Source: a bacterium (GTDB lineage: Bacteria; CAIWAD01). From it: a DNA stretch of 45,838 nucleotides. Both the position numbers and the translations under genes were made by a program. The stretch lies in contig JAUXWS010000043.1 of assembly GCA_030685015.1 (NCBI GenBank), forward strand, positions 90,844 to 136,681. The letters run 5' to 3'. The stretch's first letter is position 1. Every line of letters starts with the position of its first letter. The notes below the pieces were generated by a model. It was not told where the DNA came from and searched no databases. It was given only the letters and a program-made list of their open reading frames with translations. Of this stretch, positions 326 through 3,517 are shown one piece after another.

Positions 326-2209
326 ATGGCGACCTGGCTGCTGAAAGGACTGTTTTTCACGGCACTGACCCTCCTGGCGGCCTGGCTCTTCTGGCGGGAG
401 CTGTCCCGTCGGTTGGCCGCCCTGCGCCGGGCGCGCGGACCGCTGCCCCGGGATCGTCCGGAGCGCCGCTGGGCCCGGGTCCTGCGCGAGGTGCTTTTCC
501 AGACGAAGGTGATCCGCCACCGGCCCCTGCCCGGCCTGGCCCATGCCTTGCTGGTATGGGCCTTCGGCGCCTACTTCCTGGAGACGCTGGACCACTTGAG
601 CAGGATCTGGCAGCCCCGTGGCTTCCTGCCCGATCAGGGCCTTTTCCATGTCTTGTTTCACGGACTGGTCGCCGTCTTCGCCTGGGCCGCCGCCGCCGGC
701 ATCATCGTGCTGGCCGTCAGGCGCTTTGTCCAGCGCCCGGTGGAGCTGGGCCGCAACCTGTCCTGGTCCAGCGGCGCCGTCGCCCTTTTCATTCTGCTTC
801 TCATGTTGACCTACCTGGCCAGGCATCACGGCTGGGTGCCCGACCAGGGACCCAGGGCGGAGCTGAACTGGAGCCTGCACACGATCGTGCTGCTTGCATT
901 TCTCGTGCTGATCCCCCGCTCCAAGCACCTGCACCTGGTCCTGGGCCCCTTTGCCGTCTTCCACCGCAACGAGACCCCGGGCGAGCTGGCGCCCCTGGAC
1001 TTCGAGCGCGAGGAGATGGGCGTGGACACCTTGGCCGGGCTGGGCCAGGCCAACGCCCTGGCCTTGTTCGCCTGCGTCGAGTGCGGCCGATGCATGGAAC
1101 ACTGCCCGGCCACGCAGTCGGGCAAGGCCCTGGATCCCAAGGAGCTGGTCCTCCGCATGCGGGATGGTTTCCTGACGGACCCGGAGCAGCCCGCGGTCGG
1201 GCCGCAGGTGCCGGAGGATTGGCTGTGGCAGTGCACCACCTGCGGTGCCTGCGCCGAGCAGTGCCCCACCGGCAACGATCAACCCCTCAGCATTCTCGAG
1301 TTCCGGCGCGGCCTGACGAGCGAAGGGCGCTTCCCCGACACCCTGCGCACCCTCTTCGACAACCTGGAACGCAGCGGCAACCCGTGGCGCCACGCCGCGG
1401 TCGATGCAAGCGCCTTCCTGCGCGAGGCGGGCATACCCCTGCATGACGGCTCACAGAAGGTCCTCTATTGGATGGGTTGCATGGCGCGCTACGATGAGGC
1501 TTATCGTCGCGTGGCCCTGGATTTTGTCGCGATCCTGCGCGCCGCCGGCGTGGACTTCGCCGTGCTCAAGGACGAGAAATGCACGGGTGACGCCGCCCGC
1601 CGGGCAGGCAACGAGTTCCTCTTCCAACAATTGGCCATGGAGAATGCCGCCCTCATCAACGAGGCGGCCCCCGACCTGATCGTCTCCACCTGCCCCCACT
1701 GCATCCGCAGCCTGGACGAATACAAGTCCTTGCCGGACGAGATGCGGCTGCTGGATCGGCCCATCCTGCACCACAGCCAGTTCATCCGCCAACTGATCGA
1801 GCAGGGACGCCTGCCCTTGTCCACGACCCATGGCGCTCCGGTTCAGGACCTGGCCTACCACGACCCCTGCTACCTCTCCCGCTACGTGGATGAAGGGGTG
1901 GACGCTCCGCGCGAGGTGCTGCGCGGCGCCGGTGTCCGCGTGCGCGAGGCGGAGCGGCATGGACGGCGCAGCTTCTGCTGCGGGGCGGGTGGCGCCCAGC
2001 TCTTCATGGAGGAGCGCGAGGGGCGGCGGATCAACCACATCCGCACGGAGGAGCTGCTGGACACGGGAGCCGGGACCGTCTGTGTCTCGTGCCCCTTCTG
2101 TCGCACCATGATCAAGGATGGCATGACCGACAAGGGACGCGGGGATCTTCCCGTGCTGGACCTGGCCCAGGTGGTGGCCCGCTCCCTGGGCAAGGCGGCG
2201 GATGTGTAA
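326..2209 (+). CDS. etfD: Membrane Fe-S ETF:(mena)quinone oxidoreductase, EtfD/EMO family (CCG domains)
   Basis: 627-residue protein that probably passes electrons from reduced electron transfer flavoprotein to the membrane quinone pool during acyl-CoA oxidation. The N-terminal third has about five membrane helices (residues 3-22, 68-90, 105-133, 150-172, 187-210) resembling NarI-type cytochrome b subunits. Two 4Fe-4S ferredoxin motifs follow: C250/253/256/260 and C303/306/309/313. The C-terminal half carries two CCG (heterodisulfide-reductase type) segments, with cysteines at 385, 419, 456/459, 515, 551/552 and 586/589/592. This order matches EMO/EtfD proteins such as mycobacterial EtfD, which works with EtfBA. 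The gene converges on etfA/etfB here, which supports the assignment. The start at 326 is chosen because GGAG lies 5 nt upstream and the first membrane helix begins at once; an in-frame ATG at 227 gives only a non-conserved extension. A lactate or glycolate Fe-S oxidoreductase is the alternative. Confidence 0.8.
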   Translation: MATWLLKGLFFTALTLLAAWLFWRELSRRLAALRRARGPLPRDRPERRWARVLREVLFQTKVIRHRPLPGLAHALLVWAFGAYFLETLDHLSRIWQPRGFLPDQGLFHVLFHGLVAVFAWAAAAGIIVLAVRRFVQRPVELGRNLSWSSGAVALFILLLMLTYLARHHGWVPDQGPRAELNWSLHTIVLLAFLVLIPRSKHLHLVLGPFAVFHRNETPGELAPLDFEREEMGVDTLAGLGQANALALFACVECGRCMEHCPATQSGKALDPKELVLRMRDGFLTDPEQPAVGPQVPEDWLWQCTTCGACAEQCPTGNDQPLSILEFRRGLTSEGRFPDTLRTLFDNLERSGNPWRHAAVDASAFLREAGIPLHDGSQKVLYWMGCMARYDEAYRRVALDFVAILRAAGVDFAVLKDEKCTGDAARRAGNEFLFQQLAMENAALINEAAPDLIVSTCPHCIRSLDEYKSLPDEMRLLDRPILHHSQFIRQLIEQGRLPLSTTHGAPVQDLAYHDPCYLSRYVDEGVDAPREVLRGAGVRVREAERHGRRSFCCGAGGAQLFMEEREGRRINHIRTEELLDTGAGTVCVSCPFCRTMIKDGMTDKGRGDLPVLDLAQVVARSLGKAADV

Positions 2210-2377
2210 GCCAGACCTGCCATGCCACCAGACCAGTTAACCCAGGATGGATGAACACAACCAAAATGGTGCAGGCATGAGCGACCGTTTCGCTGCTCTC
2301 TCGATTGCGCCAGATCGAAGCCATTGTCCAGCTTCGACTTCACCACGGGAACAAAAGATGCAGGCGGGCGTTTGAGG
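2210..2377. other. Non-coding stretch between etfD and a sigma-54 promoter
   Basis: 168 nt after the etfD stop with no convincing reading frame and no strong hairpin or T-run that would terminate etfD. The etfD transcript may therefore read on to the terminator at 2516-2541. Confidence 0.5.
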
Positions 2378-2393
2378 TGGCACGCTTGTTGCA
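2378..2393 (+). promoter_or_regulatory. Sigma-54 (-24/-12) promoter, perfect consensus match
   Basis: The sequence TGGCACG-CTTG-TTGCA matches the sigma-54 consensus TGGCACG-N4-TTGCW at every defined position. The invariant GG (2379-2380) and GC (2391-2392) are exactly 10 bp apart. The predicted transcription start is near 2404. No gene starts downstream on this strand before a strong terminator at 2516-2541. The enhancer-binding activator is not identifiable in the window. Confidence 0.75.
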
Positions 2394-2403
2394 AAAGCAA
2401 GCA

Positions 2404-2541
2404 GCGTCAAGGGCCGAGGCCCGGCAAGGGTCCAAAGCCTGAGACATCCGCCTACCCAACCCTCTCTGTATAGCTGTGTGTGACGCGACAGCCGTTGACA
2501 AGCCCCGTCAACGGGAAGGGCCCCACCCCGGGGCCCTTTTT
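2404..2541 (+). ncRNA. Candidate sigma-54-dependent small RNA, about 138 nt
   Basis: The stretch is bounded by a perfect sigma-54 promoter (2378-2393) and an intrinsic terminator (2516-2541) and contains no plausible reading frame. Visible hairpins on the plus strand are GGCC/GGCC around 2412-2421, GCTGT/ACAGC (2473-2477 with 2488-2492), GTTGAC/GTCAAC (2494-2499 with 2507-2512) and the terminator stem. A C/U-rich, apparently unpaired segment (about 2448-2467) could be a base-pairing seed, but its targets are unknown. I recognise no Rfam family. The region could instead be the tail of the etfD transcript or a 3' regulatory region. Being converging and 31 nt from the etfA end, the RNA could also touch etfA readthrough transcripts. 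Confidence 0.55.
2516..2541 (+). terminator. Rho-independent terminator
   Basis: A 9-bp perfect stem AAGGGCCCC / GGGGCCCTT (2516-2524 with 2530-2538) with a 5-nt loop runs into TTTTT at 2537-2541. The T-run is on the plus strand, so it ends the candidate small RNA and probably etfD readthrough. The minus strand has no T-run, so it is not a good etfA terminator. Confidence 0.85.
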
Positions 2542-2572
2542 GTTTCCGCTTGCCCATCATGGAAGGGTTGTG

Positions 2573-3517
<945 letters not shown>

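Follow-up and report, generated by a model that had tools for sequence, protein, structure and literature searches.

A candidate sigma-54-dependent small RNA gene with its own terminator, conserved downstream of etfD in one bacterial genus

Several proteobacterial small RNA (sRNA) genes, GlmY and NrsZ among them, are under sigma-54 control, and the Qrr sRNAs, which are ∼100 nt long and end at a terminator of their own, depend on Hfq for their action. Qrr1 of the Vibrionaceae is a sigma-54-dependent sRNA governed by an enhancer-binding-protein switch (LuxO/SypG; PMC10162802), and CrcZ and CrcY of Pseudomonas and Azotobacter are RpoN-dependent sRNAs in which sigma-54 acts with CbrAB (PMC6292655). 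We analyzed a predicted RNA gene that lies between etfD and etfA, both genes of energy metabolism, near the start of a 45,838-nt stretch of bacterial DNA, referred to here as the window. The first-pass annotation of this DNA had presented the element as a new kind of RNA, on the grounds that sigma-54 normally drives protein operons; with Qrr1 and CrcZ/CrcY established, that novelty was overstated, and we assign the RNA to a known functional class, to which it contributes a sequence family not described before, from a phylum that has received little study.

The locus has sequence attributes of the sigma-54 sRNA class i.e. a conserved -24/-12 site, RpoN and sigma-54 activators encoded in the genome, a terminator of its own and no conserved open reading frame (ORF). 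Like the Qrr genes, it is predicted to stand alone and to be transcribed from a sigma-54 promoter under an enhancer-binding-protein switch, but it differs from them in sequence and phylum, in lacking an Rfam Qrr match and in the absence of Hfq from the genomes. With CrcZ it shares RpoN dependence (predicted here) and a position downstream of a same-strand gene, from which CrcZ is also made as part of a co-transcript (PMC6292655); however, CrcZ antagonises Hfq-Crc, whereas here there is no Hfq, the conserved motif is present in a single copy and there is no adjacent CbrB-like gene. Sigma-54 control is likewise what it would have in common with GlmY and NrsZ. No Rfam family, including those of Qrr, CrcZ and GlmY, matches the window at its gathering score, and the sub-threshold matches to BjrC68 (17.2 of 39 bits) and asX2 (19 of 70) were rejected as far below those scores.

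The claimed perfect -24/-12 site pointing at a terminator was confirmed. This promoter, TGGCACGCTTGTTGCA (TGGCACG-CTTG-TTGCA; 2378–2393, plus strand), has GG-N10-GC spacing and is the only zero-mismatch match in the window. When up to two mismatches were allowed there were 14 sigma-54-like matches against 8.7 expected, and because these looser matches are not usefully above chance, the perfect match alone is informative in the window. A sigma-54 site also stands ahead of the same RNA in two other genomes of the genus, G002 (TGGCACGTTTGTTGCT) and G001 (TGGCACATGGCTTGCA). From the promoter geometry the transcript is predicted to start at about position 2404. Upstream lies a dyad, TCGAAGC-N9-GCTTCGA (2315–2337, plus strand), spanning approximately -89 to -67 from the predicted start; it is the only inverted repeat of at least 7 nt within 2210–2380, and its 10-mer AGCCATTGTC recurs in G001 at about the same distance, within a 14-nt dyad. 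By its sequence and position, this dyad is a plausible site for an activator (enhancer-binding protein).

We looked at sigma-54 use in the window's genome (G000) and in four relatives: G001 and G002 of the same genus, G003 of the sister genus and G004 of the same class. G000 has one RpoN, whose DNA-binding domain was found in a 502-aa frame, and gives 20 matches to the sigma-54 activator domain, ∼16 of them strong. A strict motif (TGGCACGNNNNTTGCW) occurs four times in G000 and not at all as the same pattern reversed, which served as the control; over the five phylum genomes the counts are 16 and 1. Several strict sites (L091, L093, L099, L105 and L106, in G004, G000 and G001) precede genes whose products have signal-peptide-like starts, which suggests that sigma-54 may serve surface or secreted proteins in this lineage. 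Since RpoN and activators are encoded, the motif outnumbers its control 16 to 1 and several sites front secreted-looking proteins, it is very probable that this organism does use the motif.

The predicted transcript begins with a body (2404–2455, plus strand, as are all parts of the transcript) that drifts in sequence and length between species. It is followed by a conserved block, CCAACCCTCTCTGTATAGCTGTGTGTGACGCGACAG (2456–2491), consisting of a C/U-rich open stretch, a putative pairing seed, and the invariant AGCTGTGTGTGACGCGACA. Next come hairpin 1, CCGTTGAC-AAGCCCC-GTCAACGG (2492–2514), predicted in all three species of the genus, and an intrinsic terminator, AAGGGCCCC-acccc-GGGGCCCUU (3' arm also given as GGGGCCCTT), with UUUUU (2516–2541). 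The terminator folds as a stable hairpin with a U-run in all three species, bearing out the strong terminator claimed earlier; it is clear in the fold and absent from the list of a simple terminator scan, so that the call relies on the fold. Fold z-scores were -2.5, -3.1 and -1.8 in the three species, values that we ascribe largely to the two 3' hairpins; the predicted 5' folds differ among the three. The first-pass description of several hairpins with a C/U-rich open region therefore holds in part: the C/U-rich stretch is conserved, as are both 3' hairpins, but the 5' fold is not. A candidate stem around the block in G000 (GCUGU...ACAGC) was rejected because it is broken in both G002 and G001. 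No covariation was found in hairpin 1 among the three species, where the stem hardly varies, a result that counts neither for nor against it.

The earlier claim that no reading frame lies between promoter and terminator was right in substance. Mechanical ORFs do cross the region (e.g. 2237–2560 on the minus strand and 2480–3145 on the plus strand); these are not conserved. Compared with the other two species, G001 is missing 2 nt in CUCU(GU)UUAG, a single nucleotide just ahead of the hairpin and 2 nt of the loop, so that no frame stays intact through the conserved part. The predicted G000 transcript contains no ATG. The frame-breaking indels argue against a peptide-coding role, and none of the ORFs is credible.

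In G001 and G002, too, the element follows etfD and shares its strand, and in all three species the order is promoter, variable body, invariant block, hairpin and terminator. The first-pass annotation had made conservation of the promoter and stems in relatives a test of its proposal, and in these two genomes the promoter, block, hairpin and terminator are all kept. The block CCAACCCUCUC..UUUAGCUGUGUGUGACGCGACA is nearly invariant in all three members of the genus, with pairwise identities of 35/37, 32/34 and 33/34 (94–97%) and none of 300 shuffles as good; the hairpin and terminator stand as far above shuffled sequence as the block does, and the 5' body, compared between G000 and G001, does no better than shuffled sequence. 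A kept promoter and 3' half around a drifting middle is the pattern that would be expected if the gene consists of a promoter and a terminator with its functional region towards the 3' end. Because the three genomes are closely related, part of this identity is explained by shared descent.

Outside these genomes the family was not recovered. In the GTDB 220 contigs, the exact 18-mer of the block occurs elsewhere only in DYSB01000204.1, which corresponds to G002 (labelled Acetofilamentum sp., a label that may not be right), and in CAIWAD010000288.1 (LaPlata_bin-1558), which corresponds to G001. A covariance model built on the 3' part of the RNA (R1) and run against 290 genomes gave 100–117 bits for the three genus members and less than 30 bits for all other matches. 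These low-scoring matches, including that in G003, were rejected as relatives, as those inspected rest on a GC-rich terminator and do not contain the block. In the sister genus (G003) the RNA is absent: etfD and etfA are convergent and ∼165 bp apart there, and the gap between them holds an ordinary terminator but lacks a sigma-54 site. By sequence comparison, the family is thus new (absent from Rfam) and, on present data, restricted to the genus.

These comparisons give good support to the prediction of a separate RNA that is driven by sigma-54 and ends at its own terminator, and the promoter, the terminator, their conservation, the non-coding nature of the segment and the presence of RpoN are each supported by computation. 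We consider it likely that the locus is a stand-alone sigma-54-dependent sRNA gene with its own terminator, whose product may act by trans base-pairing without Hfq. Transcription itself and the activator site we infer: an enhancer-binding protein, probably bound at the upstream dyad, would open the RNA polymerase–sigma-54 complex at 2378–2393, and transcription would begin near 2404 and stop at the terminator near 2541. In front of its two stable 3' hairpins the product would present a conserved C/U-rich stretch (CCAACCCUCUC), largely unpaired, together with AGCUGUGUGUGACGCGACA. It would base-pair in trans, without Hfq, with mRNA segments that are G-rich and resemble ribosome sites; the partner of CCAACCCUCUC would be GAGAGGGUUGG i.e. 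purine-rich sequences of this kind. The anatomy (a C/U-rich open stretch, a conserved 20-mer, a stable hairpin and a terminator) resembles that of trans-acting pairing sRNAs, and by this analogy we lean somewhat towards trans-pairing as the mode of action. In a target search with complements of the block's two halves (two 12-mers, at most one mismatch), matches were not enriched in G000, were not shared between species and lay mostly inside genes. One intergenic site in G001 (C127:3246) pairs well with the block, but a search of the other species gave no counterpart. The Hfq family (PF17209) had no match in the five phylum genomes (G000–G004), although the positive controls were detected, so that pairing, if any, would proceed without Hfq or with another helper. 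The absence of Hfq makes the parallel with classical pairing sRNAs less close. The first-pass annotation suggested a tie to nitrogen or carbon state; this is unsupported, as no activator, signal or target could be connected with the RNA.

The main functional rival to pairing is protein titration, in which the RNA would act as a decoy for an RNA-binding protein, as CrcZ does for Hfq-Crc, and would not pair with mRNA at all. A conserved block for which the target search gave no shared mRNA complement would fit such a role, as would sigma-54 control, which CrcZ also shows (PMC6292655); however, titrating RNAs usually carry repeated sites whereas the conserved motif here is single-copy, and the five genomes of the phylum lack Hfq, and we regard a decoy as quite unlikely. 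The main rival on origin concerns etfD (326–2209, plus strand), which encodes an EtfD-like membrane-associated Fe-S oxidoreductase (CCG cysteine-rich domain, 4Fe-4S; Pfam CCG and Fer4) and lies upstream of the RNA in all three species of the genus, making it a possible source of read-through. The terminator and block could be the untranslated 3' end of the etfD mRNA, from which an sRNA would be released by processing, whether or not the sigma-54 site contributes. The element is on the same strand, 169 nt past the etfD stop, with no terminator between them in the simple scan, and there is a precedent in CrcZ, which has a sigma-54 promoter and is also processed from a cbrB-crcZ co-transcript (PMC6292655). 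Processing alone would need no sigma-54 site, however, and the site is kept in all three species amid drifting sequence. We judge this origin unlikely as an explanation of the locus, and note that by analogy with CrcZ in Azotobacter (PMC6292655) the two origins could coexist.

On the other side of the RNA is the convergent etfA (2573–3517, minus strand; Pfam ETF_alpha and ETF), whose end lies 32 nt from the terminator in the window. The RNA could in principle be a cis-antisense regulator of, or a collision device for, the convergent etfBA transcript, which might enter the RNA gene from the opposite side. The RNA faces etfA tail to tail in G001 as in the window, and the minus strand of the hairpin has no U-run; nevertheless, cis action has no need of an invariant 20-mer, and in G002, where the contig with the RNA ends before etfA and the etfA side is therefore unproven, the etfA contig has 86 nt of unrelated sequence past the stop, so that any overlap would be distant at best. 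This makes a cis-acting role very unlikely. As the sister genus keeps the gene pair without the RNA, the tie of the RNA to etfD and etfA is positional only. Finally, a chance sigma-54-like site beside an ordinary terminator, with no RNA gene, might be considered given that the case for the gene is computational and that looser sigma-54-like sites are common in the window; all three species keep the promoter together with the block, hairpin and terminator, which renders such a coincidence the least credible reading, and the stand-alone sigma-54-dependent sRNA gene is the one we prefer.

Following the strict sigma-54 sites also led to a second sigma-54-linked non-coding RNA of ∼185 nt, highly structured and present in all four family members examined (the genus and the sister genus): G000:C67:41334-41606 (minus strand; L150), G001:C133 (minus; L149), G002:C163 (plus; L151) and G003:C11 (minus; L152). 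Its -24/-12 site is flanked by the two arms of an inverted repeat, CCCATTCG...CGAATGGG, and the RNA is closed by a long helix, contains an element that hardly varies, ACACCACCGUUUGAUUUUGC (also given as ACACCACCGTTTGATTTTGC), and has a terminator. It has no Rfam match. Twelve of its predicted pairs show two-sided changes, a covariation signal that comes from four sequences only, and as a structured RNA we regard it as stronger than the one downstream of etfD.

Together these add two conserved sigma-54-linked RNA families that are absent from Rfam, in a phylum examined through five genomes, none of them with an Hfq match. Provided that it is transcribed as predicted, the RNA downstream of etfD would place sigma-54 control of sRNAs beyond the proteobacterial model systems and would offer a clean case for studying the Hfq-independent action of C/U-rich sRNAs. 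In the class relative G004, a strong terminator, AAAGGCAAATGC...GCATTTGCCTTTTTTTTT, lies ∼85 nt beyond a strict sigma-54 site (L100; G004:C149:28854-28869, minus strand) and no long ORF is present; from its sequence L100 is a possible third sigma-54 sRNA. We suggest, tentatively and as less than an even chance, that this deep uncultured lineage, in which Hfq is not recognisable, uses several regulatory RNAs under sigma-54 control (the present one, the second and possibly that of G004) that would be chaperone-free or would use a new RNA-binding partner. Just past the terminator of the second RNA in G000 (C67, minus strand) there is also a run of short tandem units of the CCCCCGGGCTTC / CCCCCGGGCCTC type.
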